Below are positions 8,341 to 49,220 of a stretch of DNA of 64,000 nucleotides, piece by piece. Each line of letters starts with the position of its first letter. Position 1 is the first letter of the stretch. The notes below the pieces were generated by a model, which saw nothing but the letters and a program-made list of their open reading frames with translations, searched no databases and was not told the DNA's origin. This DNA is from Epichloe hybrida (Eukaryota; Ascomycota; Sordariomycetes; Hypocreales; Clavicipitaceae): the NCBI GenBank assembly GCA_019022495.1, contig JAFEKR010000057.1, positions 124,001-188,000 on the forward strand. The letters run 5' to 3'. The position numbers and the translations under genes are program-made.

Positions 8341-8571
8341 TGTTAGTTACACCAAGGGGTTGGTATGCACTAGTGCAACGTAGGGTCAGGTTCAATGATA
8401 TAATAAGGTCTAAGGATTAAAGCTATCTACAGTGTTATATAGCCATAAGAAAAGGGGGACGCAAGTCACGTGTGTGCCTTGCGTATAGGTGCGGCTAATT
8501 ATAGTGCGGCGCTACCATATATACTCCACTTTCCTAGTGGTTAACCTAATATTAACCTAGTTATTATAACA
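8341..8571 (-). repeat. LTR of element A (left; 3' LTR of the minus-strand element)
   Basis: The LTR starts TGTTAGTTACACC and ends ATAACA (originally CGCAACA). It aligns along all 231 bases with 14331-14561. Its outer left part keeps C and G while its inner right part is mutated. Confidence 0.9.
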
Positions 8572-8592
8572 CTAGTAACTTCTCTTTTTAGG
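8572..8592 (-). other. Polypurine tract of element A
   Basis: Read on the minus strand, this is an A/G-rich run (AAAAAGAGAAG) directly before the 3' LTR, the usual place of the plus-strand primer in LTR elements. It supports the minus orientation. Confidence 0.6.
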
Positions 8593-11500
8593 AAGAAAGT
8601 AAGGCAGGATAGATCTAGTACTAAAAGAGGGAATTAGTAAGTATATAAATAAAATAAGCCTATGTAAGGATAAGTAAGTCTAATATTAAATTTAGACTCC
8701 CTATTAGTTAGCAATGAAATACAAGGAAAAATCGCTTAATTCGCGGATTAGAAAGCAGGCTTGATTAGGAGCTTCTAAAAGCTTGAAAAACATAATAAAA
8801 ATCAGGATTATTCAAAATAAACATAAGTGGATATAGGGAAATAAAATAAGGGCTTCTTATTAGCTTAGGCATAGTTAGATTAGGTTCTTATTAATCTTAT
8901 CTGGTCTCTAGTCTCTTCACCTAGCCTTTAACTTAAATTACAGCTTCGTTCAAGTTAATAAAGGTCTTAAGGCTCTTATTCGGAGATACCTTTATTATCA
9001 CGTTAGTAAGGTTATTATTACCGTTAATCCATCGTACTTTATAGATCTCTTGTCACTTATATGATTGCTAAAGTGCTATAATATTAATTATAAGGCGTTT
9101 CTCCTTTGTAGAACCTAGCTTTATAAGACACTTATATAACAAAAAAGAGTCTATATAGATAATCATAGGGATGCGGTTAATCTTTAATCAGTCCGTGATT
9201 ATATTAAGGGTTATGGTAATTATATAGGCTATATTAGCACCTTATACTATTAAGTATAGTTTGGAAGCAAGGGCGCTACGGGTTACACGCTTACTTTTTG
9301 TTAAGCTATATATAATAATATTACCTTTTAAGGTAAATATGTTATCTTTTGCCTCTTTATTACTAATTATAATTACGTATCCTATCTAGGAACTTAGATC
9401 TTTATTATTAGTAAGGGATCTATCCACAAACACAAATAACTTCATATTCTTAAGGTCTAGAGGGATGTAATATAAGCCTTAGTCTTAATGTTAGATCTGC
9501 TAGTTAAGTCGCTTATTTAATTGATTTATATTATTAGGAGTTAGATCTTAATGTTATACTGCGATTAAGAGGTTGTAAAGGGCTTCAGGTTAATAGACAG
9601 TTATAATATAACTTCCTTATGCTTGTTATTTAACATAATCTTATTTCATAGTTAGTAATTACAAGTCAATCTGCCTAATCTTCTTACTCTAGCCTTTTTA
9701 ACAAAGCTTTATTAAGTTATTAGCGTTCTAGGTAAGGATATAACTATTAAAGATAAGGGGATTCTTATCTAATAGCTTCTGCTTTAGCTTTACTAAGAAA
9801 TTCGCCTTCTACAGTTCCTTCTCTTCAAGGTTATAGAAATCCTAGTCACTAAGGCCTAGCGTATCATTAGTCTATATGCTAACTACTCTAAAGAGGTTAT
9901 TATTATTCTCTTCTATAATTAGTAAGCATAGGTTATAGGATAAAGTTATTATCTTAAGCATCTCTTTATAGTAATGGAAGTAAGTTATGAACTAGTAGGT
10001 TCTAGCTTCTGCGATTCCGTATAAAGGCTTAATAACTTCTATAATAGTTCCTTCGGGGAACAGATATACTATCTGCTTAGGTAACATAGCGATAATTAAT
10101 CTTATAAGCTACGTTTTTAATTATACGTAAGCTTATGTAATATCTTGAATCCATAGGATAATTCCTCTAGATCTAAGCGATAGTGTAATCATAATAATTA
10201 ATTATTAGCTTAATCTTTAGATTGTTAGGGATTAGGTTAGGATAAATTCCTTCCCTTTATTATTTATCCCTTAAATCATAAGTCATGACTTTTTATATAG
10301 CGTAGCTATTCCTTTACCTTTAATTTCTCTTACTATACAAGATTTAAAGAGTCTCTTATTACTATGTTTAGCAGGATTAAACAGTATAAATCTAAACATA
10401 TTACAGGCTTGCAAAGCATTAATCTTAATCTAATCTAATAGCTTAAAGGGCTTGCCTAGGGTTATAATCTTTCCCTCTTAATGTAACTAAAGGGCTAGAT
10501 CCTAATCAGCTTCTTCCTTTGCTATAATAAATACTATACTTAACTCGCTATTAGCTATAAGTTCCTCTATTAATACTTCCTCTTAGTCTTTATTTACTAA
10601 GTATATAGTTACTATATATTTAGTTTCTATAAGGTTAAATTAAACTATAAGCTTCTTTTATAGTCTTTTATGCTTTCTCTTAGGCTATAGTAATTCCTTA
10701 TTTATTTCTAAAGCTTTAGGGATAATCTCTTTAATTATTAGGGTCTTATTTATATCTATAGCTTAGTCTTTACCTCTAGGTATTAACTTGTAAAGTTCTT
10801 TAGTATAGTATAGGTTATAATAGTATAGTTTAATAATTATTAATTAGAATCTTATTAGTTTACAGGGTATTTAAAGGGTATAGGTTTCTCTATTAGTAGT
10901 AAGAAGCTTATAGGGGCTATACTATCTATCTTTCTCTCTCTATATACATACATCTAACTATAATAGAAGTTAGTGCGTTAGCAGCGTATCTAGGCTATTT
11001 TAGGTTCTTAGAGTATTATAAACTTATTGCTTTACTAGGAGTTATTAGACCTTATTAGTAGCTTTATGGATTGCTTTAGCTTATTAAATAATAAATACAC
11101 TTAGCAGTGACTTATTAGTTATCCGTAGATATGTACTAAAGATAAGAATTATAGGAATAAGACTATTAGGGCCTACTAAGTTGTTTATAGCTTTCATAGC
11201 TATCTAAAGTTATTGCTTAGGCGTGAGATCTTAACCTATAGAGTCTATAATAATTATATAAGCTTGCTATAATAGTTTATAATAGCGTTTAACTTTTCTA
11301 ATGCTATTATAGGCCTTAACTAGAACTTTATTAATCTTGATTAATAGTAATTATGTATAATACTTAAATTTTACTAATGTAAAGTTCTTTTTAGCATTAT
11401 AGATAATTTATTCTAGAGAACTAAGGTAGGTGTTAATCTAGTATTCATGTAAGGCATTCTAAATATTACGTGCCTTTTACTTATTTAAATTAAGGAATTA

Positions 11501-14330: not shown

Positions 14331-14561
14331 TGTTAGTTACACTAAGGGGTTAGTATGCACTAGTGTAACGTAGGGTTAGGTTTAATAATATAATAAGGTC
14401 TAAGGATTAAAGCTATCTATAGTATTATATAGCCATAAGAAAAGGGGGACGCGAGTCACGTGTGTGCCTTGCGTACGGGTGCGGCCAATCACAGTGCGGC
14501 GCTGCCGCACGTGCTCCACTTTCCTAGTGGTCAACCCGATGTTAACCCGGTTGTCGCAACA
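14331..14561 (-). repeat. LTR of element A (right; 5' LTR of the minus-strand element)
   Basis: It starts TGTTAGTTACACTAAGG and ends GTCGCAACA, with TG...CA termini. Its outer right half keeps a GC-rich sequence including two CACGTG or GCACGTG motifs and a CCAAT box, while its inner left half is mutated. The base order before 14331, read on minus as CTAATTAGTGGTTAAG, is the putative primer-binding region shared with elements B and D. Confidence 0.9.
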
Positions 14562-14775
14562 GTAATATCTTAGTAGATAATAACACCTTTTCTCTTCTCC
14601 TTCTAAAATAATAGCTTTACTAAGATATTACTTAGTAAATATCTAAGGAGAAGTAATATCTTAGTAAATAATACCTTTTCTCTCCTTTTCTTCTCCTAAA
14701 ATAATAGCTTTACTAAGATATTACTTAGTAAATATCTAAGGAGAAGTAATATCTTAGTAAATAATAATACCTTTC
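14562..14775. repeat. 93-bp palindromic minisatellite, about two and a half units
   Basis: Units repeat every 93 bp. Each contains a 14-bp perfect inverted repeat, TACTAAGATATTAC against GTAATATCTTAGTA (14618-14631 with 14653-14666, and 14711-14724 with 14746-14759), separated by 21 bases. Element A inserted exactly within such an arm. Confidence 0.85.
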
Positions 14776-15643
14776 CCTCTATTATAATCTTGAATTAATT
14801 TATATTAAATTAATATAAATAGGAGATTTAATAACTAGGACTAGGCTATAAGATTCTTTTATTTAAGAAGTAAGAGGGATCTAAGCTAAATTAATATATA
14901 GAGGTAGCTTAATTACCTTATTATTATTAATAATAAAGCTAATAAAGCTCTTATTATCTAAACTTATTAAAATTTCTATATCTAATAAGATATATTAGCT
15001 TTATCTAGCTATTATATAGCGTAAAGTATTTCTACCTTTTATTACTATATATTAAGAGCCCTTAGGCTAGTATTTAGGTTAGTCTAGGAAGTAAGAGTAC
15101 TAAGATTAAAGGGAGTATTAAATATAATACCCTTAAGTGTTTTTACTCTTAAGATAGTAATATATATAAGGCTTATTATAAACTCCTTTATAGAGATATT
15201 AGCTACTATCTTATTAAGAGTAATACCCTATAACTTATATATAGTAATAGTATATATAATTATAAATAGGAATTAATACTAGCTATATAGGTTACTACCC
15301 TTAATAAACTTATAGTATACTTAGAAAATAGGAATAATAGTAGCTTTATTAGGCTTTATAAAGTAAGGTAGTCCTATATACTTATCTATTTATATAAATA
15401 TAATATTAGGAGCTTATTAGTAAGGATTAGTAATATCTTAATCCTTGTAAATATCTTTTATAATCCCTATAGCGCTATTAATAAGGCCTATAGGCGTCTA
15501 GATATTCTCTATTAGTATAACCCTTACTTTAATATAAACTAGTAAAGTGTAGTAAAGGTTTCCTACTATTTAAGAATTAGTATTATACCTAAATTCACTA
15601 ATATATATTATATAGACCTAAATAATTAGTAATATAAGCCTTT
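14776..15643. other. Unidentified RIP-degraded repeat, left part
   Basis: AT-rich DNA full of TA-bearing stops. It continues after element B1 at 18865, since B1 has a clean target duplication. I recognise no transposon domain in it and it holds no long open frame. Confidence 0.5.
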
Positions 15644-15909
15644 TGTTAGTTACACCAAGGTCCTACGCAGGTATAAGGGTAATCCCGTATAATTAAAGTC
15701 GATGATAGTTGATTAAATTAGCTAGGAAGGAAAGAGGGAAAAGAGAGGGAAAGTCTAGATGCTAGGAAAGTAGGCGAAACCTATATATAGGGTAAAAGAG
15801 GGGGTGGCAAATTAATATAGCTAATCGCATTGCATGTATTACGCTAGACCTATAATTTAGTCTAGTCTTTAGCTATAATTAAACTAATAAAAATCTAAAG
15901 GAATTAACA
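15644..15909 (-). repeat. LTR B, left copy of B1
   Basis: Begins TGTTAGTTACACCAAGGTCC and ends GGAATTAACA. Same length as the right copy. The outer left half is little mutated and the inner right half is strongly mutated. A TATATA box is present near 15790 (read on minus). Confidence 0.9.
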
Positions 15910-18598
15910 CTAGTAGTCTCTCTTTTTCCTTTATAGCTAAAGAGCTTAAAAATATAATAAAAAGCAAATTAAAGGAAAGTGTATATAAGTAAATCCCTTA
16001 ATAGGAATCCGCTACTTTAATTAGCTATTATAGTATTAGTTAATTAAATTAATTTATTAGTCCTTGCTTAAGCTTCTATCTCCTAATATTATAGGTCTCT
16101 TTACCTGTCCTTTAATATAAATCATTAATTTATTTAAATTAATTAAAGAGGAAAGTAATAAATTTAGTAATGCTTTTATTATTATATCCGCTAGATTATT
16201 ATTACTATTAATCTACCTAACTTTGTAGATCTCGTGCCTCTTGTATAATTAATAAAGAGCTATAATATTAATTATTAGTCTCTTCTCCTTTATAGTTCCT
16301 AGTTTTATAAGATATTTATATAATAAAAAGGAATTAGTATAGAGAATCATAGGAATTCGAGGCATTTTCAATTAATTCGTAATCTAATGTAAAGTTATGG
16401 AAATTACATAGGTAATATTTACGCCTTAAACTATACTATATAACTTAGAGGTAAGTACACTATAAGTGACTCTCTTGCTCTTTGTTAAGCTATATATAAT
16501 AATGTTGCCTTTTATAATAAAGGTATTATTATCTTGTATTATCTTATTACTAATCATAATCACGTATTTAATCTGTAAGCTTAAATCCTTGTTATTAGCA
16601 AGTAATTTATTTACAAACACAAAGAGCTTTGCCTCCTTAAGAACTAAAGGAATATATTATAGTTTATGTTATTAATTCTTAATCTATTACTTAAGGCGTT
16701 TATTAAGGTATATAATATTTTCCTTAGAGGGTTCTTAGTGTTAAGCTATAATTAATAAGTTATAGGAAGCCTCTAGTTAACACATAGTTACGATGTAGCT
16801 TCCTTAGGCTTATTATTTTACGTAGTCTTGCTTTACTATTAGGGATTAAGGATTAACTTCCTTAATTTTCTAACTCTAGCCTTTCTAGGTTAACATTAGC
16901 AAGTTGTTAGTGTTCTAGGTTAAGATGTAACTATTAAAGATGAGGGGATTCTTAGCGGTTAATCGTTGCTTTTCTTTGGCTGTGAAATTAGCCTTCTAGA
17001 GCTCTTTCTCTTCTTTTTGGAAGAAGTTATATAGCTTCCTACTGTAGCAGTCGCTATCCTTGTATATCTTCGTAAGCTCTAAGATCTTCTTTGTGATCTA
17101 ATCTTTAGAGGTGAATTGCTATAAAGGCACATTTTGTTATAAATAACAGTCCCCTAGTTGTTATTAATAACGATTATTAGGATGAAGCTATTGATTTAAT
17201 AGCAATCATTGTGAGGGCTCTTGTAAAGGTTTACGTAGTCTTTAGGGTTAGGGAAGGTGGATTTCTAGGGTAGGTTATTAGGGCTATTAATATTAAGGCT
17301 CTAGGGGTTCGGAAGATTATAGTCTCTTTTGTGATCTCTCCTATAACTAAAGAGGTATTAAAGTTTAATAAAGCACTTCTTTAAGGGATACTAGGATTAA
17401 ATATCCTAGGCCTTGCTTAATAAGAACGCTATAATCTCGTAGAGAATTACGTAATTCTCTAATAACTTCCTTTATAGCCCTTTTAAAGGTATCTTTAGAC
17501 TAGCCTTTAAAGTCTTCTTAGAATAATTCCTATAGGTTATTATCTCTCTAACCTTAATGTTTACTAAGGTTAATAAATCTTATAATCTAGTTATTAAGCT
17601 TAAGCTATGTAGTAGTCTCTAGATCTAGCTTAACGAATTCTTTCTAATTACTAGAGAAGTTATAAGTAAGCTATTAAAGGTATAAGGGTAACTTATACTC
17701 TTAGGGTCTTTTAGGGGTAATAGTTAAAGCCTTACTATTACTAGTAACCTTTGCTTTTATGAAAGGTTTAGATTCCTTTACTATCTTTAACTATAAAAGA
17801 AACATTACTAATTTATTATTTTTACTACTAATTAAGCTCCTATGTTTGCCTATTACTATTATAAGGTTTTTCTTTTGTACTTTAGGAGCGTTATTACTCT
17901 AATAAAATTAGAAGATTATAAAAACAGGAAAAACAGAAGAAAAAGCAGCAAAAATAGTAAAAGTAGTAATAAGAATAAATTAATAAAGATAAAGAAAGTA
18001 ATAGAAGTTCTAAAAGTAACTAGAAAATAATAGGAAAAGTAATAAGGGAATAATAGGAATTACCACTTCCTATTTTTTATAAAAAGGAGGGAAGGAGGTA
18101 ATCTCTCTCTCTTACTAATAAGCATAAGGTAAATAGCACTAAGAGTAAAGGGGGCAAAAACAAGTAGTAAATACTTATAGGGAGAGATTAAAAATCTATT
18201 AGAAGGTAATGTGTTAAAGGGAATTTATAGGTGTATTAGCTAGCTTAGCTAAGGTTATTTAACATCAGGTTCGAAATAAATACCTCGTAGCAATAGATTC
18301 GGTTAGTTAGTTAGTTTTCTCGTAATAGATAATAAAATTAATAATTAATAATAATATCCTAGATAGATATAATAAAGTTATATCCCTTAGCCTAAGGGGT
18401 AATAGATTAATTCCTTAGAAGCCTAATAAGCCTATAACTAGGATTCTAGTCTCTTCCTTTAGCACACTTATACAGTTATGCCTCTCTACCGTAATAACCA
18501 TTATAGTATAATAAGGGGTAGTAGTAGTGGTGTTTATAGAAATATCTCTTCTTATAATACCTAGCTTATTTATAGTTATAAAGTTAACTACTAATTAG

Positions 18599-18864
18599 TA
18601 TTAGTTATACTAAGGTCTTACGTAAGTATAAGGGTAATCCTATATAATTAAAGTTAATAATAGTTAATTAAATTAGCTAGGAAGGAAAGAGGGAAAAGAG
18701 AGGGAAAGTCTAGATACTAGGAAAGTAGGCGAAACCTATATATGGGGTAAAAGAGGGGGTGGCGAATTAATGCAGCTAATCGCATTACATACATCGCGCC
18801 AGACCCACAATTTAGTCCGGTCTTTGGCCACGATTGAACCGATGAAGATCCGAAGGAATTAACA
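18599..18864 (-). repeat. LTR B, right copy of B1
   Basis: Begins with mutated TATTAGTTATACTAAGG and ends GAAGGAATTAACA. The inner left half is mutated; the outer right half keeps GC-rich sequence such as CGCGCCAGACCC. Confidence 0.9.
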
Positions 18865-19904
18865 CCTTTCTATATAGTTATAGTTATATTCTTAGACCTA
18901 CTATCTTATATAGTAAATATAGACTGTATTTATAAAGGAATTAACCTCTAGAAGCAAGAGCTATAATTAAATTTATAAACAAAGAAGCTTCTAATAGTTA
19001 ATAGATAGCTAAGCTAAGTAAAGGCCCTAGAGAGCTTTATAAAAGGGTGCTTGTGTATTACCTTATTAGTAGATAACTTACTAAAGCATAATAGTCTTAT
19101 TAAAGGCCTAATAGGTATTACACCTAGCTAGATTTATGTTATTTATAAGTCTATTATTACTATAGAGAGGCTTCTTAAAGACTAGTAAAAGCTAGTAAAA
19201 GTTACTAAAGAGAATTATACTATAGCTACTAAAGTAATTCTCTAAATTAGAAAAGATCTAATAAAGTTATTAATTAATAAAGTAAAGCATCTTTAGCTTA
19301 ATTATAGACTTCTTATTAATAATAATATATTTGACCCTTTATAGGGTGCCTTATAAATTAGAAAGCTTATTAGTGAAAAGCTTAGGTAGGGTTATAATTT
19401 ACCTTAAGACTAGAAGATATAGTAGCGAATATAATATTATTCCGTTAATGCTATTAGTAGTAATTCTAGTAAGGGTAGCTTATATAATACATCCTAGGGC
19501 ACGGTATTCTAGTGCTATAGAAATAATATAAATAATAAATGATTTCCCTATGCCTCCCTAGCTATTAACCTAGAGAAAAAGTAATTTAAGTGTTTACTTA
19601 TTTAAATTAAGAGTATCCTTAAGGTAGTAAATATATATATTAAAAATAAGGCACTGCTCTAGATTAAGACTAGTGATGTTTTGGTTACTTATAGGATTCT
19701 AAGAAGTAATAGTAGTAGTAAAAGACTCCTTAAGGCTATTCTATCACTCTCTCTTTTATATAAGAAAATTAGGATAGGTTCTAATATAATTTTACTAATT
19801 ATAGGCTAAATTATAATTACGGTTCCTAAGCAATTTAACCTTATTAGTGTTAAGCTTAATATATAAAATCTAGTAAGCTATTTCCTACTAAGCCTCTAGC
19901 TTTT
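18865..19904. other. Unidentified RIP-degraded repeat, right part
   Basis: This continues the sequence interrupted by B1. A 66-codon open frame at 19331-19531 is the longest, but matches no domain I recognise and lies in the same degraded background, so I do not call a gene. Confidence 0.45.
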
Positions 19905-28500: not shown

Positions 28501-28581
28501 TAGTAGTATTTGTAAAAATGTCTTTTCTTGTGATACCTAGCTTATCTATAGTTATAAAGTCAACTACTAATTAGTATTAGT
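22251..28581 (-). mobile_element. Long copia-type element B3, minus strand, right LTR destroyed
   Basis: The left LTR (22251-22510) is of the B type. The interior of about 6 kb keeps the whole length that B1 lacks. Near 22770-22850 the minus strand reads EVRWINSNDNPADI, the C-terminal RNase H signature of fungal Ty1/copia elements, which fixes orientation. The right end shows the same pre-LTR sequence as B1 (CTAATTAG) and then only seven LTR bases (28575-28581) before the Copia at 28582. All frames are broken by RIP-type stops. Confidence 0.8.
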
Positions 28582-28656
28582 TGTTAAAAATAAGACCTAT
28601 TTTTAGCCCTTTTCTAGTTAAAGAACCTTCTTATTACTAGCTTGCTTTGCAAGTCT

Positions 28657-28732
28657 GACAGCTGCACTGCAGCTGTCAACGGTCGCGAGGGCAGCTGTCA
28701 ATGGCTGCGTCGCAGCTGTCAACAGCTGCGAC
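28657..28732 (+). promoter_or_regulatory. Palindromic CAGCTG cluster in the LTR
   Basis: Five CAGCTG hexamers fall within 76 bases. Two perfect inverted repeats stand out: arms GACAGCTGCA/TGCAGCTGTC around one base (28657-28677) and arms GTCGCAGCTG/CAGCTGCGAC around TCAA (28709-28732). CAGCTG is an E-box type (bHLH) site. A role in transcription is inferred. The same cluster is in the 3' LTR from 34867. Confidence 0.55.
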
Positions 28733-28818
28733 TGACCGTGTGGATGACTAATTAGTCAATTGCGTTGTGGCTGCAAGTGTGGCTACAACCACGCCACTAG
28801 TAATTAGGTAAGCTAGGG

Positions 28819-28841
28819 TGACGTAAGCTAGGGTGACGTAA
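28819..28841 (+). promoter_or_regulatory. Two tandem TGACGTAA sites in the LTR
   Basis: TGACGTAA occurs at 28819-28826 and 28834-28841 inside a 15-bp tandem repeat (GGGTGACGTAAGCTA). This is the core of ATF/CREB-type bZIP sites, common in stress-responsive promoters. Function is inferred. Confidence 0.5.
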
Positions 28842-29404
28842 GCAGGTTACCCTACACATAACTTACCCTATAGCTATATTTGACAACGATTTTCTCTTTA
28901 TCTAGAGGTCGTACAAAAGTTTCACATATAGCAAATTGAAGCTTGAAGATAGGGCTTTCTCTTTATGCAAGGTTATTTTTTGGACCAAAAGTTGGTGCAT
29001 ACGGGTTGCTAGCTAGTATGGTGGTGAGTCGATTTTTTGGTTTTTGCATACAAATGAATTTTGCGGAAAATCAAAAGTGGCCCGTAAGACCCCGTTGGCG
29101 GCCCGGATCCACCGATACGGTCGGTAGGTCTATGAGAGGAAGAAGATCTTTTCAACTAGCTAGATAGCTAGTCCTCTCAACTAACAACAGCCGCATTGCC
29201 CGTACAACGTATCTAAAATCAATTCTATTGCTCTATAAGATATCATAAAAGTGATCTAAATTGAATTCTATTAGTTGATAACTGCCACAACCTTCCGTTG
29301 CGTTGCGTTGATTGATTCAACGTTGCAGCCCTATTGGTCCCCGACCGTAGAGCTTGCACCTGTACAGCTGTTGCCAGCTGGCAACTAGCTCCCTACATTT
29401 CAAT

Positions 29405-29420
29405 AGGTTATGAGCCCGGC
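29405..29420 (+). other. Primer-binding site complementary to the anticodon arm of initiator tRNA-Met
   Basis: Two bases after the LTR comes AGGTTATGAGCCCGGC. Its complement holds GGGCUCAUAACC, the anticodon stem-loop of methionine tRNA with anticodon CAU. Copia itself is primed by an internal fragment of initiator tRNA-Met rather than by a tRNA 3' end, so this fits the family. The tRNA gene itself is not in the window. Confidence 0.65.
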
Positions 29421-29465
29421 TCTATCACTATAGATTCCTTTTAGGTCACTTTGTGTACGATTACA

Positions 29466-29617
29466 GAAGACTTCCCTTCTATAAAAAAGGAAGGACCTGC
29501 GAGAAAGAAGCTTTTCCCTTCTATAAAAAGGAATCAATTGTGGCTACAGAAGACTTCCCTTCTATAAAAAAGGAAGGACCCGCGAGATAGAAGCTTTTCC
29601 CTTCTATAAAAAGGAAA
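29466..29617 (+). repeat. Leader repeats with TATA-containing hairpin modules
   Basis: An 83-bp unit starting GAAGACTTCCCTTC repeats at 29466 and 29549. Each unit carries two modules of the form CCCTTCTATAAAAAGGAA, able to pair CCTTC with GAAGG or TTCC with GGAA around TATAAAA. The last module ends next to the gag ATG. The inverted copy has more modules (56162-56464). Confidence 0.8.
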
Positions 29618-32600
29618 ATGGATACCAAAGGAAAGGGAAAGGGACCTGTTATCCCTGACCCTAGTGCGCAAGAGGTTCTAAATAACCAGCTAAAAGAGCA
29701 GGCTATTAAGCAACAAGCAACTATAGACCAGTTATTAGAGAAGCTAGAAAGCCTATCTATAACTGTAAATAGTCGTATGGAGGGTGTGGAATCTGATAAG
29801 CCCGCTAGTCAGCAGCAAGATCAGCAGCCTGTTCAAGAAAATCAAGCTAAATCTAGCTCTGTACAAGCAACCTTTAATAATTCAATTATTAAGGAATTCA
29901 ATAAAAGGGTTTATAGTTTTCCAGAGACTGCTAGGCTTAAAGGAGCCGAAAATTTCGAACAATGGAAGCAAGCCCTAACTATCCAATTTAGAGCTTTAGG
30001 CATACCTAATTTTCTAGATAATCCGGAGAGTTCTAGGGCGCTAGGGGATCCAGATTAAGCTATTATCCTTATGTTACTAAGGGATAGTTGTACAGAAGGA
30101 CCCCAAGCCGCTATAACTTGGCAAAAATCACCTGAAGAAGCCTATAATTTACTTGTAAGGCAATATTCACATAGCGTTGAAATCCAGAGGGGGTCCCTAT
30201 ATTCAGAATTTCATAACCTGAATTTTCAAGAGTTTAAGGGGACTCTAGAGTCCTTTAATGCAGTCTTTAATAATCTACTAGCTAGATTATCGATTTCAGG
30301 GGTCCTGATTGCTCCGATAGATCAGGTTAATCAATATCTTCAATCCCTAAAATCAACCTTCCCTCAGTGGGCTGAGAGGCAACGATTCAGCATGCGCACG
30401 AATAGGGCTATAGGGGCTCCCCTAGAAGCCCTAAATCTTCAATTTTTGATGGCAGACCTTCTAGCAGAACAGAGGGATAAGTCATCTACGGTATCCAAAG
30501 CCCTGAATTATAGGGCTAAAAACCTTAAAAAGGGTGCCAAAGAAAAAGAAAAGGCCCCTAAGGATCAGAAGAAGAAAGGAGGCTCTGAAGAAAATAAGGG
30601 CTCTTCTAATTCTAATTCTTCTTCTAATAAGAAGAAGAAGAAGAAGCAAAAAGGTCAAAAATCAGATAAAAAGGATAATAAAGAGACCTCTGGAGAGGGA
30701 TCTTTTATGCTAGGAAATTACAACCTTTCTAACGGTGCTCTTAAACCGTACAAGAAGCCTAGCCTTCATAAGACTAGTTATAAGAGCTCTAGTGATAGCA
30801 GCTCTGATTCTAGCTCTAGTGAATCGGATAATGAAAATCAAGAAATTAAAACCTTAAATGGTTTTAATTATTACAGCAAAGACATGAAAAAGGCCCTATT
30901 ATATGATACAGGTTCGACTGTACATATTGTTAATTCTAGGGAGGTCTTTAGGGATTATACCCCCTATAAAAAGGGGGAATCCGACCCTATCATAACTGGT
31001 GGTGGCCCTATTTACGCTAAGGGTCACGGTAGTGCTGTTTTTGAGGTCCTATATCAGAAAAATCCAGCTAAATATAGGACCTTAGTGCTTAAAGATGCGC
31101 TATATTTTCCTCAGCTTGATGTTAATATAGTTAGTGGACTTACGCACTATATATCTGGTGGTTGCCTTATAAAAAACCTACTTTATCTTAAAGATAGGTC
31201 TCTTATTGCAACCTTAGATATAGAAAAACATGGTTTTTTCTTCCACGTTAAAAACCAATCTACGCCTAAGTTATCTAAAGGGCCCTGTAATAATTCGCAT
31301 TATATCCGACCTTTTACCTACGCCGCTTTTAAGGGTCATAGTTACCCTATAGAGGTTCAAATTCCCTCTAAAAAGCCGGATTAGGCTTCTGATTTAGACG
31401 AAATCGACGAAAATGATGATGATATTGAAGAAATCGTACGGGATGATTTAGGGGAATTAGTCCCTTCTTCTTCGCCTATAGCCCCAGGTTGGGTCCCTTA
31501 TAAATCTAAGGAAATAGATTTAGGGGTGTTAGAGGGCCCTAGTGGAGGAAAAGGGTCCCTAATACCTCTCCAAGAGGCCTGTGGTTCTCAAGGGGCCCAG
31601 CAGGGGACTAGTGAAGAGGGCCCTAGTCTAGATCCTAATTCAGACCCTAAGGATCTTCAATATCAACGGTTGTTAGAACTAGCTGGCCTATGGCATGTAC
31701 GATTAGGGCACCTAGGTCTTCCTTTGCTAAAGAAAACTAGCCTTATAACTAAAGGAATCCCTGATTTTTCTAAAATTAAGGATAAGGATTTTAGATGTAT
31801 TGCTTGTGATCAATCTAAGGCAGTTAGAAGACCCAGGAAATTAGCTATCCCTGACCCCCCAAGAGCTCTAGATCGAATAGAGGGGGATACGCTAAAAATC
31901 AGCCCCACGCCGTACAATAAGCAGTCAATTTGCTTATTTCTAGTTGATCGAAAGACTAGATATAAGTGGGTTATCTTATTACCTAATAAGGAAGGCCCAA
32001 CTGTTTATAAGGCTATCAAAGGCTTCTTCAGAGGGCTTAAAAATCAACTAGGTCAATATCCTAGGCACCTTCACTTCGATGGGGGCCAGGAAATCGATTC
32101 TAGTTGTCAAGCTTGGTTGAATTCTAAAGGGATCAAATTTACGACTTCTAGTCCCTATATCCATGAGCAAAATGGATTAGCAGAACGTTCAATTCGTACT
32201 ATTCTAGATCGATTAAGGGCTACTATCCAGTGGGCAAAATTACCGTTATTTTTATGGTGTTTTGTATTACCTGCAGTTGTTAACCTAGTTAATATAACTG
32301 CTAATACCACTAAGGATGAAAGCCCTGAACAGCTGCTATCTAGGGAGCTAAATCAGCCTTATACAACTGATATTAGCAGTATTAGAGCTATAGGATCTCA
32401 CTGTGAGATTCTAATCCCCCTGGAAAAACAACCTAAAGCCCAGAAGTTAGCAGCTAGGACTATCCCTGGAAGACTTTTAGCTACACTAGGTTCTAACACC
32501 TACCTAGTGTACATCCCCTCTAAAAGGCTAGTTACAAAGACTAGCTTTATTAAGATTATAGAACCTATAGGCCCTGTTTCTAAAGGCTTACCTAGGATTT

Positions 32601-34582
32601 CTATAGGGGATAACCCTTTAGAGGGGGAAAATGATCTAGAAAATGAAAATCAACAAAATCTAGACCAAGGTTCAAAGGATTATCCTATAGACAACATAGG
32701 TATCCCTGTAGGTCAAGAAAAACCACCTACAGGCCCCAAAGAACCCCCTAAAGGCTTAATTCCAGCGGATCCCATACAGGCGCAGCCTATAACTCAACCA
32801 GGAAATCAGATTTCGACTTCGGACCTCGATTTTGACAAAATTATCGATTTCGACCCTAATATCGACCCTATGGATGTTGATATTAGTTCCCCTTCTTCTC
32901 TAGATTTCATAAAAGAAATCTGCTTTAAGGTACGGGAGAAGCTAAAGGAAAAGAATCCTATTAGCCCCGAGCCTAAGACCTGGAAGCAGGCTATATCTAG
33001 CCCTGAAAGGGATAAATGGATAGAAGCCACGTACAAGGAATACGAACAGCTTCTAAAGGCTGGTACTTTTAAATTTATAGGGAAAGATCAAATCCCTAAG
33101 GGCCGAAAAGTACTAAAGAATAGGCTTGTTTATAAGCTTAAAAAGGATAAAGAAAATAATCCTTTAAAATATAAGGCTCGACTCGTTGCTAAGGGATTTA
33201 TGCAAATCGAAGGCCTAGATTACCTAGAGACCTTCGCTGCCACAAGCATTCCCCCTAGCTGGAGGATTTTACTAGCCCTAGCGGCTTGGAATAACTGGGA
33301 AATCGAACAAATCGATTTTATAGGAGCTTTTCTTAATAGTAAGCTACAACAACAGATTTATATGGTTATTCCAGAAGGGTTTATTGAATTCCTTGAGGCA
33401 AATCCTAAACTAGCTAAATTAGCTAGAAGTTTTGGCTGGAAACCTTCTAAAGATCAAGTAATTTTATTACAGAAGTCTTTATACGGCCTAAAACAAAGCT
33501 CAAGGGAATGGCAACAAGCGCTAATATTAGTGCTTAAATCCCTAGGATTTAACCCTTTAATATCTGACCCAGCTATCTTCTTTAATCCTTCAACCAAAAC
33601 CTTCGTCATTACGTACGTTGATGACTGTCTTCTAATTGGACCGGATTTATCTTATATCCAAAGGCTTAAAAAGGAACTTCATAAAGTCTATCCAATAGAA
33701 GATAGGGGGCCTGCTGAATTCTTCTTAGGGGTTTAAATCGTACGAGATAGGCCTAATAGAATACTGAAAATTCATCAATCTCAGTATATATTAGAAGCCT
33801 TAAAACGATTTAATATGCTAGATAGTAAGCCTATTAGCATACCTCTTCAGCCAGGCGTTTTAGCTACGCAGACAACTAAGCTTTTAATAGCTAGCGAAAT
33901 CAAGCTTTATCAGTGCATTATAGGGACTATAATGTACCTAATGTTGCTTACAAGGCCTGATACAGCTTTCACGCTACAGTGGTTATTTACTGCACTAGCT
34001 AGCCCTTATATAGAACACCTAAAAGCAGCTAAAAATCTGCTAAGGTATCTATTAGGGACTAGATTCCTTGCTATTATCTATAGGGGAGACCCTAAAGGTT
34101 TAGTTAGCAAAAGCCTAATAGGTTATTGTGATAGTGATTTTGCAGGGGATAAAAAGACCTCAAAATCAACCTATGCTTATCTATTCAAGCTAGCTGGCGG
34201 ACCTATTAGCTGGAAATCAAAGAAAGCTAGTACAATAGCTCTATCAACACTAGAAGCTGAAGCTGATGCTATCTGCGAGACCTTCCGGGAGCTTCAGTGG
34301 CTTCAGGGCTTATTTAAGGAGCTAAAAACCCCTATTTCTCCCCCTATCCAGATATATTGCGATAATCAAGGCGCTATAACTACTGCTTATAACCCTGCTT
34401 TACATAGTCGTACAAAGCATACATTGCTAAAGTTCAACTATATTAGGCAACAGGTTTTAGAGGGTTTAGCTAAGATTGAATATCTAGATACGAAGTCAAT
34501 GCCTGCAGATGGTCTTACGAAACCTCTTTCTAGACCTCTTCATCAGGCTTTTATTAAGCTTTTAGGGCTTAATAATTATTAA
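29618..34582 (+). pseudogene. Copia gag-pol polyprotein, one frame with three stop codons
   Basis: The frame spans 4965 nt (1654 sense codons plus the final TAA) and is broken only at 30056 (TAA), 31382 (TAG) and 33734 (TAA). Gag follows the ATG at 29618; it has no CCHC zinc knuckle but a Lys- and Ser-rich stretch (about 30517-30840). Protease shows DTGSTVHIVN at 30905. Integrase has a His/Cys finger (H at 31694 and in RLGHLG, then CIAC near 31796) and D, D, E positions at IEGDTLK (31877), HFDGGQE (32071) and NGLAERS (32170-32190). Reverse transcriptase runs from RLVYKLKK to YVDDCLLIG (33613). RNase H shows GYCDSDFAG near 34120 and ends at KPLSRPLHQAF. The inverted copy has CAA at the first and third stops and also TAG at the second. 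The protein would drive retrotransposition in cytoplasmic particles; as it stands full translation is blocked unless stops are read through. Confidence 0.92.
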
Positions 34583-34791
34583 ACCAACAACTAATTCCCT
34601 TCAACAGGGAACCAAAAAACAACGTTAAAAAGGGAGCTATATTTAACAATAGCTAGGAATTCAAAAAGGGGGCTTTTTTCATATTTTCCTGTTTTTCCCT
34701 TTTTATCTGTTATTAAAAGTTGTTGATTTTTCCCTATAGTCTTTTTGTACACTTCTAATTGCTTTTAAATGTAATTCTTTTGTAGAGGGGG
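34583..34791 (+). other. Copia 3' untranslated region and polypurine tract
   Basis: This short AT-rich stretch follows the gag-pol stop. It ends in GTAGAGGGGG directly before the 3' LTR, the expected primer for plus-strand DNA synthesis. No gene is present. Confidence 0.7.
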
Positions 34792-35612
34792 TGTTAAAAA
34801 TAAGACCTATTTTTAGCCCTTTTCTAGTTAAAGAACCTTCTTATTACTAGCTTGCTTTGCAAGTCTGACAGCTGCACTGCAGCTGTCAACGGTCGCGAGG
34901 GCAGCTGTCAATGGCTGCGTCGCAGCTGTCAACAGCTGCGACCGACCGTGTGGATGACTAATTAGTCAATTGCGTTGTGGCTGCAAGTGTGGCTACAACC
35001 ACGCCACTAGTAATTAGGTAAGCTAGGGTGACGTAAGCTAGGGTGACGTAAGCAGGTTACCCTACACATAACTTACCCTATAGCTATCTTTGACAACGAT
35101 TTTCTCTTTATCTAGAGGTCGTACAAAAGTTTCATATATAGCAAATTAAAGCTTGAAGATAGGGCTTTCTCTTTATGCAAGGTTATTTTTTGGACCAAAA
35201 GTTGGTGCATACGGGTTGCTAGCTAGTATGGTGGTGAGTCGATTTTTTGGTTTTTGCATACAAATGAATTTTGCGGAAAATCAAAAGTGGCCCGTAAGAC
35301 CCCGTTGGCGGCCCGGATCCACCGATACGGTCGGTAGGTCTATGAGAGGAAGAAGATCTTTTCAACTAGCTAGATAGCTAGTCCTCTCAACCAACAACAG
35401 CCGCATTGCCCGTACAACGTATCTAAAATCAATTCTATTGCTCTATAAGATATCATAAAAGTGATCTAAATTGAATTCTATTAGTTGATAACTGCCACAA
35501 CCTTCCGTTGCGTTGCGTTGATTGATTCAACGTTGCAGCCCTATTGGTCCCCGACCGTAGAGCTTGCACCTGTACAGCTGTTGCCAGCTGGCAACTAGCT
35601 CCCTACATTTCA
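34792..35612 (+). repeat. 3' LTR of the plus-strand Copia
   Basis: 821 bp, about 99% identical to the 5' LTR; the visible differences are near 28733, 28891, 28925, 28938 and 29202 of the 5' copy. Confidence 0.95.
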
Positions 35613-38600
35613 ATAATATAGCTATAGTGTTTAATATAGCAAAATTCCTTAATAATATCTCTGCAAAAATAACCTAGGAAGCCCTCTGTATGTGCTAGAT
35701 TAATGCTTACCTAGGCCCCCTAGACTTTATTATTATAGATACTAGAATAAACTTCTATAGCAATAAATTTAGATAATTCATAGCTTTAATGTTAATTTTA
35801 ATTAAGGAAGTCCCTATTAAGGCACACTATAGTATAGGGAAGGTTAAAAGGTATTATAGGCCGCTCTAAAGAGCCTATAATATAATTAGACGTAAATACC
35901 CTACAACGCTAGAACCTATTGCCCTTTAAATAGCAATTAAGGCCTTAAATAACACCATAGGCCCTAATAGCCTTATCCTAACCCTCCTTATCTTTAGAGC
36001 CTACCTATATATAACAAATAAGTCCCTACTATTGCCTAATATTACATAGTATGTGATTATAATATAGAAGGCTACTAAAGAGATTAAGAGACTTTACACT
36101 ATCTAGAAGGTTAATAAGGCCCTTACTAAACATAATAGCCTAGATACCTTAAAGACCCTTAGCCTGCTACTTAGATTAAAGGTTAAGGTCTAGTAAGAAG
36201 GTAAGGGATAGGTAGGTCTATATAAACTACTAGTGATTACTAAAGAAAGCTATACACTTAATATGCCTAGAGGCCTAAAGACCTTTAGGTTAATATCTAT
36301 TAAGCCTTACTATAATAATCCTAGTGCGAAGAAGATAGCAAAGCCTAGTAAAGAGGAAGGAGAGAAAGGGCAAGAGGCCTATAATAAGAATATAGTACTA
36401 CTAATACTATTAAAGTAAGGATATGGAAGGCTATAGAAGAACCCTCCTATAATGCCTTAAGGTGCTAATACCTTCCTGTTAGTAAAAGAACATAGTAACC
36501 TAGCCCTTATAATTAAGTTACGTAAGGAAGGAATTATTAAGACCCTAGGCAAACTATTTAAGCTGTTAATAAAAGCGGAGATTAATACTCTAATTAAGTA
36601 AGGTGTGTTTAAATTTATTATATTTAATAAGGAAGAATATAGTAGGATTCGAATCTTTAATTCCTGAATTATTAATAAGATTAAAGGTAAGATAACGAAA
36701 CCCTACGAAAAGTCATGCCTTATGATTTAAGGGTGTGAGAATAAAGGGAAATAGGCTATTCTCACACAGGCCCTAACGATTTAACGCGCGAGCTAACGTC
36801 TTATCCTTGTAATAGCCCTGTTAGTAAGATTAAGGAAATTCCTTATCTAGCTAAGAGATATCTATTAGGCTTATGTATAGGCTTGTATATTACTAGAGTA
36901 GCTAATCCTAGCGCGCTTGCTAATTTAAATACGGCATCTCTACCTGCCTAGTATAATCTTAAGGGTTATTAAACCTCTCTATAGGCTTATAGAAGTAGGA
37001 ACGCACTAGTAGGTTATATATTATAAGCATTATAGAGAGAACCTCTAGATGGAAACCTTTACATATAATCCCTGCTTACTTATGACTATAAAGGAAAGCC
37101 CTAACTTTACCTGCGTTAGAATGTAAACTAATAATATAATTAGCCTCTTAGATAAGAAGTTCTCTAAGAAGGAAGAGACCTAGCTTACTATAGTAGGCTT
37201 TAATATAAAGCTAAAGTAATTTCTAACTTAGGACTACCCTCTTATGTTTAATAGTAGCATTATCTTACTAGAGAATAATACTATTAAAATCTAGTAGAAA
37301 GAGTAAAGTAATAAGTTAGAGTTAGTTCTAATGACTAACTTAAAGCGTAAATACGTTAAGCAGAGGGCCTAAGGCGCTTACATTGCCTTGATTTACTAAC
37401 CAGAGGCTTGCTTTAACCTATCTGTTACTATATAACACTAGGAGCCAACCCTAGAGGATATGAAAGCCCTTAATTACTGCCTAAAGTGGTAGATAAATTA
37501 CCTAGAGAGAGGTCTAATATTTATCCTAATTAACCTTAAGAAAGTAAAGCTCTTTGCCTTTGTAAATAAATCCTTTGCTAATAACTAGGACCTATTCTTA
37601 TAACTAGGATATATACTTATCCTAGCAAACAAAGACTACACTAATAGTAAGTTTATAATTAAAGGTAATATTATACACTTTAGCTTAATAAAGAGTAAGA
37701 GAGTTATATAAAGTGTGCTTACCTTAGAAGTCTATAGTATAGTAGCTAGTGTTAATATAGCTTATATAATTATAATCACCCTAAACTTAGTTACTAACTA
37801 ACTAAAGCTCCTAAAGATCCTAGTTATTATATATACGGATTTATACTCCTTATATAAGTGCCTTATTAAGCTTAGTATAATAAAGGAGAAACGCCTAATA
37901 ATTAATATTATAGCCCTTTAATAGTTATATAAACGCTAAGAACTTTATGAGATCTAATGGATTAATAGAGAGAATAACCTAGCTAATGCCTTTATAAAGG
38001 TATTACCTAATAAGGCCCTTAAGAGCTTTATCTTAACTAACTAGATAACTATCTAAATAGAGGGATAGGTTACCTACGCGTAATATACGCGTAGTAAGAG
38101 GAAAATATAATCCTCTAGGAGGGTAGCTATAGGGATAAGATAGTAATACGCGGGGGATCTATGCCCTTATAGTTAATATCCCTAGTAGCTATAACTATGC
38201 TAGCTTACTAGGCCCTCCTAGTGGACTATAGAAATTAATAGAGGTACGTAGGAGAATAAAGGTGTTGCTAAGGAGGAGGAAGATATTATATATACACTAT
38301 AGTGTAGTATATATATTATTTTAAGGAAAAGAAGGGATTTGGAAGGACCCACTTATCCTTATATAGGCTTATAAGCTAAGCAAGATTATTATTTCCCTTT
38401 TATTAGTAACTATATGCCTAGATAGGCTATGAGTTCTTTTCCTTATATCTCTTATTAATTATATCCTTAATTTATTTATCTTTCTTTTTTATTTCTATAA
38501 TTAATATTACGCGTTGATAATTATGTTAAAAGAGAGAAGTTCTAGTGTTAGAATAAAGGTGATATTAATCACGCGTCGTAGCCATAATTACCTAGCAGAA

Positions 38601-38855
38601 GCTTAGGCCATGCGCGAACCTTACACATAACCTACAACCTGGCACGTTAATTAGCTAGGAAATATAGGGATATAAACGCGTAACCCCTTTTCCCTTTATA
38701 TATTGTAACTTCTAGCTTTTTACCTCTCTTTTTCCTACAACTTAATCAATCATGACAACAGATAACGCAGCCTAGAATAGATAATCGATGACAATACTAT
38801 TCTTCGGGCTCACGACTGTATTACACATTGAATTCAATACCCTGTGAATCCAACA
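35613..38855 (+). mobile_element. Copia relic F: integrase to RNase H plus 3' LTR, 5' half missing
   Basis: It starts inside an integrase gene (35613-36040 parallels 21805-22250). Reverse transcriptase-like reading lies near 36660-36900 (INKIKGKI...KPYEKSCLMI). RNase H lies near 37680-38050, with IIHFSLIKSKRV, IYTDLYSLYKCL and WINRENNLANAFIK. A purine tract ending in CTAG at about 38530-38545 precedes an LTR of 310 bp. Every domain carries stops of RIP type. A 61-codon frame at 36233-36418 is a linker fragment between integrase and reverse transcriptase, not a gene. The 5' LTR and gag are absent; the plus-strand Copia abuts the break. Confidence 0.8.
38546..38855 (+). repeat. LTR C, 3' LTR of relic F
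   Basis: Begins TGTTAGAATAAAGGTGATATT and ends GTGAATCCAACA. Inverted relatives lie at 46652-46937 and 48920-49220. The outer right half keeps the most C and G. Confidence 0.85.
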
Positions 38856-39564
38856 ATAATATATTTTCCTTTATTACTAAAATTAGAAAAAAAAGCTTTA
38901 AAAGTAAGCTAAAGAATATATACTATTTTTAGCTTACTTACTTAGCTATATATTATACTAAAAAGTAGGTTTAAAAGTAAACCTTATTAACTATACCTTT
39001 TATTTACTAACAGTTTCTATGCTTTTTCTATAATTTAGTCTAAAGAAAAAGATATATTAATAAAAGTGGGTCTAAAGTAAGTCCTTATAATTATACCTTT
39101 ACTTACTAATCACCTTTATGCTTTTTCTATAATCTAGTCTTAGAAAAAGGAGGTATTCATAAAAGTGGGTCTAAAGTGGGTCCTTATAATTATACCTCTA
39201 CTTCCTAATAACTTTTATGCTTTTTTCTATAATCTAGTCTTAGAAAAAGGAGGTATTAATAAAAGTGGGTCTAAAGTGGGTCCTTATAATTATACCTTTA
39301 CTTCCTAATAACTTTTGTGCTTTTTTCTATAATCTAGTCTTAGAAAAAGAAGGAATAAATAAAAGTGGGTCTAAAGTGGGTCCTTATAATTATACCTCTA
39401 CTTCCTAATAACTTTTATGCTTTTTTCTATAATCTAGTCTTAGAAAAAGAAGGAATTAATAAAAGTGGGTCTAAAGTGGGTCCTTATAGTTGCCTTTTAC
39501 TTAGAGTTTATACTTTTTTTTAATTAGTTATAGAATTATTTCTTAAAAAGAGATATTAAATTTA
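38856..39564. repeat. 100-bp minisatellite, about five units
   Basis: The string AAAAGTGGGTCTAAAGT recurs at 39062, 39161, 39261, 39361 and 39461, a 99-100 bp period. A more diverged unit precedes it near 38960. Each unit also carries a TCTAGTCTTAGAAAAAG segment. The first 100 bases and the last 50 are AT-rich without a clear unit. Confidence 0.9.
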
Positions 39565-39700
39565 TTATTACTATTACTACTATTACTACTACTACTACTA
39601 TTATTACTATTATTACTATTATTACTATTATTACTATTATTACTATTATTACTATTATTACTATTATTACTATTATTACTATTATTACTATTATTAATAT
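39565..39700. repeat. Triplet-type microsatellite (9-bp unit CTATTATTA)
   Basis: A long run of CTATTATTA units, preceded by CTA/TTA triplets. Simple sequence. Confidence 0.95.
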
Positions 39701-40152: not shown

Positions 40153-40177
40153 TATTACTAAAAATTACAAATACTAC

Positions 40178-46651: not shown

Positions 46652-46937
46652 TATTAGTTTCACAGGGTATTAAATTTAATATAATAAGGTTATAAGCCTA
46701 AAGAATAGTATTAATATTAATTATCTATTCTAGGCTGCGTTATATGTGTAAAAAAGAGAAGTTAAAAGCTAGAATCTACGATAATAGAAGGAAAGGGGGC
46801 TGCGTGTTTATAGCCTAACATTTCCTAGCTAATTAACAGGCTAGGTTACGGGTCACGTGTAGGGCCTGCGCGCGGCCTAAGCTTTTGCTAGGTAATTGCG
46901 GCTATGACGCGCGATTGATATCACCTTTGTTCTAACA
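46652..46937 (-). repeat. LTR C, 5' LTR of element D
   Basis: 286 bp, inverted relative to 38546-38855. It ends GATATCACCTTTGTTCTAACA-like on plus. Its outer right half keeps GC-rich strings such as GCCTGCGCGCGGCC. The bases to the left read CTAATTAGTGGTTACC on minus, the primer-binding-like sequence shared with A and B. Confidence 0.8.
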
Positions 46938-48019
46938 CTTACTTTAAACTTTATTTAAGTTTACTTCTTATTATAATACTTTATATACTAGGTTTATAAG
47001 TTACTTAAAAGCTACTTAATTACTATATATTTATTTCTTAGTATAATTACTTAAGTTTTTACTTAGTTATTTATTACTGAAATATTTATAATTACTTATT
47101 ATAAGCCTTTAAGGTTATAATCTTATAATAATTTTACTAAGGTATAGCTATAAGTTAAGCAAGTACTTATATTATATATAAACTATACTATTAATAAGTT
47201 ATTTACTTATTTATTTACTTATTTATTTATACGTAAAACATAATACTTAGTTATTACTTAGTTATAATAAGGTAATAAAAGGTTATTCAAAACTTACTAG
47301 TAAATATTAAACTATAGTTTATAATAATACTTTCTAAGGTATTGTAGTTCTTAAAAATATATTCTAAAAATATAGTAATTAACTTATTACTAGTTAGTTA
47401 TATTAAAATAAGAATATAAATACTATATTTTATAAAATAGTTTATAATAACTAAGATTATATTATAAGTCTAATTTATATCTTTTATAAGTAAAAGCCTT
47501 ATAATAAAGTCTATTAATAATTCTTAAAAAAGCTAATTAAGTACTAGTAATACTACTAGCTTATTATAAGGTATATAATACCTTAGTTTTAAAGTCTAAT
47601 AGCTTATATAAGTCTATATATATAACTTAGTGTTTTTCTTTATTAATAGCTAGTAATACTAGTTTATAATATAATAAAGGGTTTTACTAATTTCTTAGTA
47701 GCTTACTACTAGGTTATTATAAGTAAGCAAAGCATTATTTATAGTGTAGTTAGTGTAGGTTTTAGGAAAAATTTGTATTTGTAATATAGTTTTTTTTAGC
47801 TAGTATTTAGTGTAATATAGCTTTTTTTTTCTTCTAGTTAGTACAGTTACTAACTACACTAACTACACTACACTACAAAAACTATAAATGTAGTGTTAGG
47901 TAAATAAAAAGTAGGTCTTTTTATATAGTAGTATTAATATACTAATTAAAAGAAAGCTATGAATTTTATACTTATATTATTAGCTATTTTATTTAATTAG
48001 TTATTTAAGTTATAATATG
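46938..48019. other. AT-rich region without recognisable gene
   Basis: About 1.1 kb of very AT-rich DNA. Only the CACTA/TAGTG microsatellite patch near 47850-47900 stands out. No transposon domain is seen. Confidence 0.5.
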
Positions 48020-48033
48020 ATAACTTTTTATAG

Positions 48034-48809
48034 CCCTCCTAGGCACGAGGTAAAACTGCTTAAATTATTATAGATCTCTATTTTTCAATACCTTTTCTAA
48101 ATATCTAGCCTTTTTCTCTAGCTTTTATTTCCCTTCTTCTTCTTACTTTTCCTAAATTCCTTAATATTTGCTTCTAGTTTTTAAATTTCCTTTTTATCTA
48201 GAATTTCCTCGGATTTTTAGATAGCTATTAGGCTCTATAGCCTAGTGGTTATAGCCCCTAGCTTGTGGTTACCCTTAGCTATACTATCTTCTAATTAGTT
48301 AGTTATTAATTGGTTAATTAGTAGCCCTTAACCCTTACCTATTAATTATAATAGGTATAGTGTATTTATTACGAATTAGAGTGTAGTTAAGTGAGGATAA
48401 GTTATGTTTTTTTTTAGGGTTTAAGTTTGCCTTAGAGCTTTAAAGGACAAGTTATAACATAAAAGAGATATAAAGAGATAGAATAAATACAGTTGCAGAG
48501 GAAGGGGGAATTACGTTAATTTATGGTATAAGTAAAACTCGAATGGATTTAAGTAACTGCGGTGACGAATTATAACTCTTACATAATCACAGCTACAAAG
48601 TTTATCGTAAACTTTGTATTAACCTTTTAGCCCCTAAATTTATAGCTTAAAGCTTATTCCTTTATTTATATTTTACTTAACACTATAGTGATTATTAAAT
48701 TTAGTTATTAATTATTACACTAGCTAGGTATTGCTAGTAATTCCTTTTGTTCCTTAAAAGTTAGATGCATTAGCCACAGCCAATGACCCTAAAAAGAAAT
48801 TAAAAATCA
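48034..48809 (+). mobile_element. SINE-like element, copy 1 (776 bp, 14-bp target duplication)
   Basis: The 14-bp duplication ATAACTTTTTATAG flanks it (48020-48033 and 48810-48823). It starts CCCTCCTAGGCACGAGG and ends in an A-rich tail ATTAAAAATCA. No LTRs, terminal inverted repeats or open frame are present. TAGCCTAGTGG at 48238-48248 matches an RNA polymerase III A box. A hairpin (CATTAGC...GCCAATG, 48768-48785) lies just before the tail. An inverted copy at 62337-63081 has the same ends and its own 14-bp duplication. Confidence 0.75.
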
Positions 48810-48823
48810 ATAACTTTTTATAG

Positions 48824-48919
48824 ATTTTATTATAACTAGGGTTATATATAATATTATAAGTTTTTTATAAGACTATTATTCTTAATACTTTTTTTTACTA
48901 ATATAACTTTAAGAAAAAC
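48824..48919. other. AT-rich spacer
   Basis: Nothing recognisable. Confidence 0.4.
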
Positions 48920-49220
48920 TGTTGGATTCACAGGGTATTGAATTCAATATAATACAATCGTGAGCCCGAAGAATAGTATTATCATCGATTATTTATTCTA
49001 GGCTACGTTGTCTGTTCTGTTAATTAATTATATAAAAAGAGAAGTTAAAAGCTAGCAGCTGTAATCAAAGAGAGAAAAAGGGGGTTACGCGTTTATAGCC
49101 CTATATTTCCTAGCTAATTAATAGGCTAGGTTATAGGTTATGTGTGAGGTGCGCGTAGCCTAAGCTTTTGCTAGGTAATTATAGCTACAATACATAATTA
49201 ATATCACCTTTGTTCTAACA
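48920..49220 (-). repeat. LTR C, 3' LTR of relic C'
   Basis: 301 bp from TGTTGGATTCACAGGG to TTGTTCTAACA on plus, inverted relative to 38546-38855. The outer left half is better preserved than the inner right half. Confidence 0.85.

Follow-up and report, generated by a model that had tools for sequence, protein, structure and literature searches.

Repeat Elements at the Locus

The sequence examined comprises a window of 64,000 nucleotides from Epichloe hybrida (JAFEKR010000057.1:124,001-188,000; positions are counted from its first letter) together with stretches taken from the rest of the assembly (79.86 Mb in 156 contigs), and the values given are those of this sample. A GC-rich stretch at 1-8000 adjoins repeat DNA that is AT-rich (GC mostly 0.25-0.40) and includes LTR elements with both LTRs inside the window. 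Between 8000 and 8500, at the start of the first of these elements, GC content drops over a few hundred bases from about 0.6 to about 0.3, the GC-rich stretch abutting a long AT-rich repeat block. At each C/T or G/A difference between the two LTRs of an element, the copy bearing T or A was scored as the mutated one; the copy in which the site lies toward the outside of the element is termed outer and its partner inner.

Element A has its left LTR at 8341..8571 and its right LTR at 14331..14561, both on the forward strand, and the TSD GTAAT at 14562-14566 matches 8336-8340. The first-pass annotation of this DNA had described the two LTRs as mirror images, and this was indeed seen: the left LTR is spared in its outer (left) part and mutated in its right part, the right LTR is spared in its outer (right) part and mutated in its left part, and within 80 bp of the edge 25 sites are mutated in the inner copy and 0 in the outer. 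The polarity claimed for element B1 (forward strand; left LTR 15644..15909, right LTR 18599..18864, TSD CCTTT at 15639-15643 and 18865-18869) was likewise borne out, each LTR being spared in its outer part. The left half of the LTR differs at 13 sites, and at every one of them the right-hand, inner copy is the mutated one; of the differences in the right half, 23 fall to the left-hand, inner copy and 2 to the outer. B1 also carries an internal deletion junction (17021..17030, forward strand), where about 3.5 kb is missing relative to full B elements and where the flanks are spared. For three C-type LTRs the same claim held only in part. Those at 46652..46937 and 48920..49220, both on the reverse strand, have opposite polarity (left part spared in the former, right part in the latter; 5 vs 22 mutated sites in the left half and 14 vs 6 in the right), whereas the third, at 38546..38860 on the forward strand, is C/G-rich at both ends and not one-sided. 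The LTR that the annotation called gypsy, the start of which lies at 58857..59216 (forward strand), shows the expected gradient as an inward drop in RIP-target dinucleotides: successive 40-bp bins hold 10, 7, 4, 1, 0, 0, 0, 1 and 0 of them, the first empty bin beginning 160 bp from the edge, although its partner lies outside the window and a same-site control is thereby lacking.

Two D elements complete the set. One, absent from the earlier list, spans 50163-57264 on the reverse strand, with its left LTR at 56462..57264 (outer edge 57264) and its right LTR at 50163..50986 (outer edge 50163); within 80 bp of the edge, 7 sites are mutated in the inner copy and 0 in the outer. The other, D1 (28582..35615, forward strand), is young: its LTRs are 99.4% identical, and their 5 differences, none near an edge, are too few to score. 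Neither D element of the window has a matching TSD (28577-28581 vs 35616-35620; 50158-50162 vs 57265-57269), and the two neighbours of D1 are a B element and repeat DNA of another kind; these features suggest later rearrangement.

LTR Pairs and the Nature of the Mutations

B-family LTRs were located genome-wide (106 places) by a mid-LTR pattern free of RIP-target dinucleotides, so as to avoid choosing them by the state of their edges, and pairs were taken as same-strand places at element spacing among the matches listed (20 pairs, including B1). A similar target-free pattern found A-family LTRs at 156 places, from which 10 of about 25 pairs evident among the matches listed were used along with the pair of the window, giving 11. 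For the D family the pattern was a target-free stretch at the left end of the LTR (446 places); 10 of about 20 pairs evident among the matches listed were used together with the two pairs of the window, giving 12. No pair was excluded on its mutation pattern. Two further D elements (L116-L119), suspected of forming a tandem array, proved to be separate and stand outside the counts, and the B LTR L011 was not used as one of a pair, its second LTR belonging to the pair of L012. Exact 5-bp TSDs flank 17 of the 20 B pairs and, outside the window, 10/10 A pairs and 7/10 D pairs; most pairs are therefore single insertions.

Comparison of the two LTRs of these 43 elements (A 11, B 20, D 12) yielded 1300 C/T or G/A differences and only 12 transversions, change being almost exclusively from C:G to T:A. 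The 489 transitions of the B family fall mainly at CpA (288), followed by CpG (158), CpT (26) and CpC (17), these being raw counts and not rates per site, and both strands are affected (203 C/T, 286 G/A). With three LTR families and a LINE family all altered, the mutations carry the marks of RIP: transitions, CpA first, on both strands, in several classes of repeat. They resemble in this the RIP of Neurospora crassa as set out in the available portion of PMC4858203, in which C-to-T change on both strands favours CpA and strikes repeats of any kind. RIP is further marked by a RID-type methyltransferase and by its timing in the premeiotic part of the sexual cycle; as to the former, matches to the C5-methyltransferase domain (PF00145) without stops, candidates by domain only, were found at four loci (C91:186180, C69:4099109, C91:3045404 and C102:3562469). 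These form two pairs, of about 1200 and 650 codons, within each of which score and frame length are similar, and the genome may thus hold two related gene sets, as in a hybrid or two-haplotype assembly.

Polarity Within LTR Pairs

The annotation had called for each LTR pair to be compared by distance from the outer edge, and the density of mutation proved to be far from equal. Within 60 bp of that edge the outer copy was the mutated one at only 18 of 536 differing sites in the 43 elements, and the inner copy at the remainder (binomial p ~1e-128, sites not being independent); finer cutting of the D LTR ends gave 17/535. Over 0-69 bp, with bins summed, the pooled value was 23/606 (A 7/224, B 11/330, D 5/52). 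Taken element by element, the majority of mutations was on the inner side in 11/11 A, 20/20 B and 11/12 D elements, the remaining D element (D1) having no scorable site. In the B family, mutations in the first 60 bp number 2 in left LTRs vs 127 in right LTRs, from position 200 to the end 166 vs 6, and in the middle (100-179) 64 vs 56. The A family showed 6 outer vs 203 inner mutations within 60 bp of the edge, and the D family 11 vs 61 within 80 bp. A column-wise table of 91 left and right B LTRs (85 distinct by comparison of flanks, a few being counted twice) displayed the same polarity. The polarity of LTR mutation is thus confirmed as real, both in the window and elsewhere in the genome, and chance is excluded as its source. 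The same-site contrast between left and right LTRs is shown in three families, the two LTRs of an element being identical at the start.

The spared look might have been expected if LTR ends were C/G-rich by nature, or if their sequence were kept by bound proteins or selection, and some end columns do rarely change in either copy. However, end columns take many mutations in the LTR that places them inward: column 13 of the B LTR is mutated at 0.12 in left vs 0.88 in right LTRs, and column 232 at 0.55 in left vs 0.03 in right. Protection tied to sequence would cover both copies. The contrast between left and right LTRs at identical columns accordingly disposes of ancestral composition, which the annotation had itself named as the reading that could undo its claim, and of sequence-specific protection, and an account on these lines is scarcely credible. 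At a few edge columns of the B LTR (5, 48 and 58 on the left, 261 on the right), outer copies are already T or A at 0.43-0.67, though the edge hardly mutates; this suggests retransposition of mutated copies, or old subfamilies.

Width and Shape of the Spared Zone

The shape of the effect was obtained from a fit of Bradley-Terry type to the 43 elements, expressed as odds of mutation relative to 400 bp inside. At the edge itself and at 25, 50 and 75 bp, the fitted odds were 0.011, 0.006, 0.026 and 0.20, respectively, and for 100, 150, 200 and 300 bp they were 0.29, 0.49, 0.43 and 0.89; beyond about 130 bp, independent information comes from the D family only, with its 824-bp LTRs. In fits with a single step, the B family had its boundary at 73 bp (bootstrap 66-76) and the D family at 141 bp (120-174), and no sharp boundary emerged for A (best 154 bp, with 72-159 within 2 log-likelihood units). 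One step common to all families is thus unsupported; what all three share is near immunity over about 70 bp followed by a gradual rise. The earlier statement that the effect fades within about 100 bp of the edge holds as to the fading, and the distance is refined to about 70 bp of near immunity and a slow recovery reaching, in the D family, to about 300 bp.

The length of the immune zone recalls another explanation, in which it is the chromatin of the flanks, and not missing homology, that guards the outermost bases of an inserted repeat. Half a nucleosome spans about 73 bp, a length similar to that of the immune edge, and this offers a lead only. The outer flanks of B LTRs are, however, mostly AT-rich (median GC 0.27, 90th percentile 0.34), being old mutated DNA themselves, and the effect is therefore not simply one of a border with GC-rich unique DNA, which is unlikely as a cause. 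As to whether RIP leaves unique flanking DNA alone, the flanks of three B LTRs (L003, L037 and L058), taken in 50-bp bins as far as the LTR, have GC of 0.34-0.70, a statement about composition only. The B1 junction, moreover, sits inside an element. Guarding by border chromatin is on these grounds improbable.

Truncated LINE Copies as Edges Without an LTR

The point of 5'-truncation of a LINE is an edge of homology that has no LTR, and it therefore separates the end of an LTR from the edge of homology. From 744 candidates of a LINE family, 31 were scored; five truncated or broken copies came from that list and a sixth, L120, from a domain search. The counts cover the 100 bp next to the break and the columns that vary among the compared copies, with only two or three fuller copies as controls (L120 among them). 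At its own break L120 is mutated at 0/18 sites vs 31/36 in the fuller copies at the same columns, L123 at 1/15 vs 36/45, and L124 at 3/28 vs 58/84; at 200-420 bp none of the three departs from the controls. L125, which also has a foreign flank, is mutated right up to the break (12/16 vs 20/48). L126 is low at the edge (1/26 vs 66/78) but also at 200-420 bp (4/34 vs 61/102), and is therefore merely a less mutated copy and uninformative. Among the 5'-truncated copies with foreign flanks, then, three of five show sparing at the break, one shows none and one does not inform. The remaining copy, L122, is internally deleted, so that LINE sequence flanks its break left and right, and is not spared (11/14 vs 11/42).

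These copies bear on two further accounts of the polarity. In one, the LTR-internal-LTR layout acts as repeat-linker-repeat, and the DNA between the repeats is the target of a heterochromatin-linked mutator, in Neurospora of the DIM-2 type, whose action weakens across each LTR towards the outside. This account predicts the same mirror image in LTR pairs, and it has precedent in Neurospora, where single-copy DNA lying between close repeats is reported to be strongly mutated (PMC4858203), and in a separate Dim2 pathway for DNA between repeats (PMC12543289), as far as the accessible text of each source extends. The present pattern resembles those descriptions in that mutation is heavier on the inner side of a repeat pair, but departs from them in that LINE copies and the B1 junction are spared without a repeat-linker-repeat layout: the LINE copies have no such flanking repeats, and the B1 junction lies deep within its unit. 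As the sole cause this route is disfavoured, and we regard it as unlikely, although it could contribute in LTR elements.

In the other account, mutation would precede integration, with the integrase shielding both ends of the linear cDNA and only the inner parts of the LTRs exposed. Since such shielding would cover each LTR at its outer end only, the polarity would come out the same. It leaves the sparing at LINE truncations and at the B1 junction unexplained, and LINEs, whose insertion does not follow the integrase/linear-cDNA route, are struck by the mutator as well. Shielding by integrase is thus disfavoured as the sole cause and is very improbable. With sparing at LINE breaks and at the B1 junction, neither shielding of LTR ends nor a mechanism confined to the DNA between LTRs is sufficient alone.

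Internal Breaks in B Elements

Among 40 places scored, the deletion junction of B1 is spanned only by B1 itself. To its left, 2/20 sites within 150 bp are mutated vs 0.66, 0.90 and 0.63 per 50 bp in five full elements; to its right the values are 2/9 within 50 bp (controls 0.71) and 4/13 at 50-100 bp (0.65), and mutation stays below that of the controls out to 300 bp from the junction. Sparing is absent at breaks in four other B elements, namely L010 (its junction likewise spanned by itself only among the 40 places), L017, L018 and L021. In L018, a lone D-family LTR is inserted at element positions 1497-2312; the adjoining B sequence is fully mutated, and the D LTR may therefore have arrived after RIP. 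Including L122, five internal breaks are thus without sparing. They may postdate the mutations, a reading made after the fact for breaks that are undated, and a mixed outcome at breaks of unknown age is as expected if some arose after RIP. The ends of elements are necessarily older than the mutations, and there the scorable LTR pairs are spared in 42/42 cases.

Some other kinds of edge were also considered. Three B LTRs without a recognizable internal flank (L011 at 2932, L042 and L057) are mutated at their left end (7/10, 9/10 and 5/10) and spared at their right end (4/18, 3/18 and 3/18); their ends behave like those of right LTRs, and they were rejected as clean solo LTRs. Identical LTRs with identical 300-bp outer flanks occur on different contigs in three cases (L007/L029 on C122/C1, L008/L021 on C93/C88 and L034/L044 on C66/C35). 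The first pair agrees over all 1201 bp compared, and the last over the flank, the LTR and about 210 bp inside before diverging. These pairs are recent duplications or redundant contigs, free of mutation since, and so provide no test of edge sparing in segmental duplications. A search for DDE_1 transposons gave one match only.

Homology as the Probable Limit on Mutation

Taken together, these observations are probably best explained by RIP that acted after insertion and was unable to act close to the end of a stretch of homology. The proposal of the first-pass annotation, that a process acting on duplicated DNA fades at the edge of homology, gains support from sparing at three LINE truncations and at the private deletion junction of B1, none of which is an LTR end. 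From the sequences, we infer homology itself to be the cause: a cytosine would be mutated only if matching DNA reaches well beyond it on both sides, leaving the outermost 70 bp or so of a repeat, beside non-matching flanks, almost immune, with the rate climbing to a plateau over the next 100-250 bp. The outer part of each LTR would lie at the edge of homology and its inner part deep in the shared element, hence the mirror image between LTRs. The limit would thus be set by homology, perhaps through pairing of intact duplexes. Against this explanation stand L125, mutated up to its break beside a foreign flank, the unspared internal breaks of L122, L010, L017, L018 and L021, for which a later origin, if real, would account, and the width of the spared zone, which differs by family (73 bp in B vs 141 bp in D) and in B1 extends, as low mutation, to 300 bp.

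The matching DNA needed may amount to about 150 bp with the target base at its middle, some 70 bp to each side, with the full rate reached only deeper in. In N. crassa, the least perfect homology that triggers RIP is 155 bp, as stated in the available part of PMC4858203, and two immune edges of about 70 bp add up to nearly this minimum. It is conceivable, though on balance we would not assume it, that homology is read in a window of about 150 bp for each target base and that the immune edge of about 70 bp and the RIP minimum of about 155 bp are one number.

In other respects the pattern departs from what has been described. N. crassa RIP, in the account given in the same portion of PMC4858203, extends across the shared homology, whereas here mutation is nearly absent in the last 70 bp or so, a distinction that is drawn from the description; a partly homologous Neurospora construct in that source had few mutations in its distal ~130 bp, which may be related to edge sparing. 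Leakage of RIP into the flanks of duplications, as presented in the accessible part of PMC7296669, likewise concerns the border of a duplication but is directed outward and of opposite sign, the rate here being near zero already inside the border. In Podospora, solo LTRs of the element crapaud are largely passed over by RIP, an escape that the text available in PMC10787394 attributes to their small size. Here as in Podospora, short repeats or LTR sequence can evade RIP, but there whole solo LTRs escape, while here the LTRs of full elements are spared one-sidedly, by position. No report of RIP fading inside the edge of homology, or of polarity within LTRs, was found in the openly licensed literature of PubMed Central, although published mutation profiles may show it.

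Significance

RIP brings into view the unsettled question of how intact duplexes recognize homology without the aid of recombination proteins, and an immune edge of about 70 bp is a length scale that any model of pairing must explain. The edge can be measured in a sequenced RIP-competent genome from its LTR pairs, in which the same sites act as their own control. If the reading of homology in a window holds, mutation profiles at the edges of old repeats would constitute a genomic ruler for homology pairing without recombination proteins. In practical terms, position would bias both RIP indices and the dating of elements by LTR divergence. Repeat ends outlast RIP, and T residues that already stand in the immune zone may point to copies that were scarred by RIP and then moved once more.
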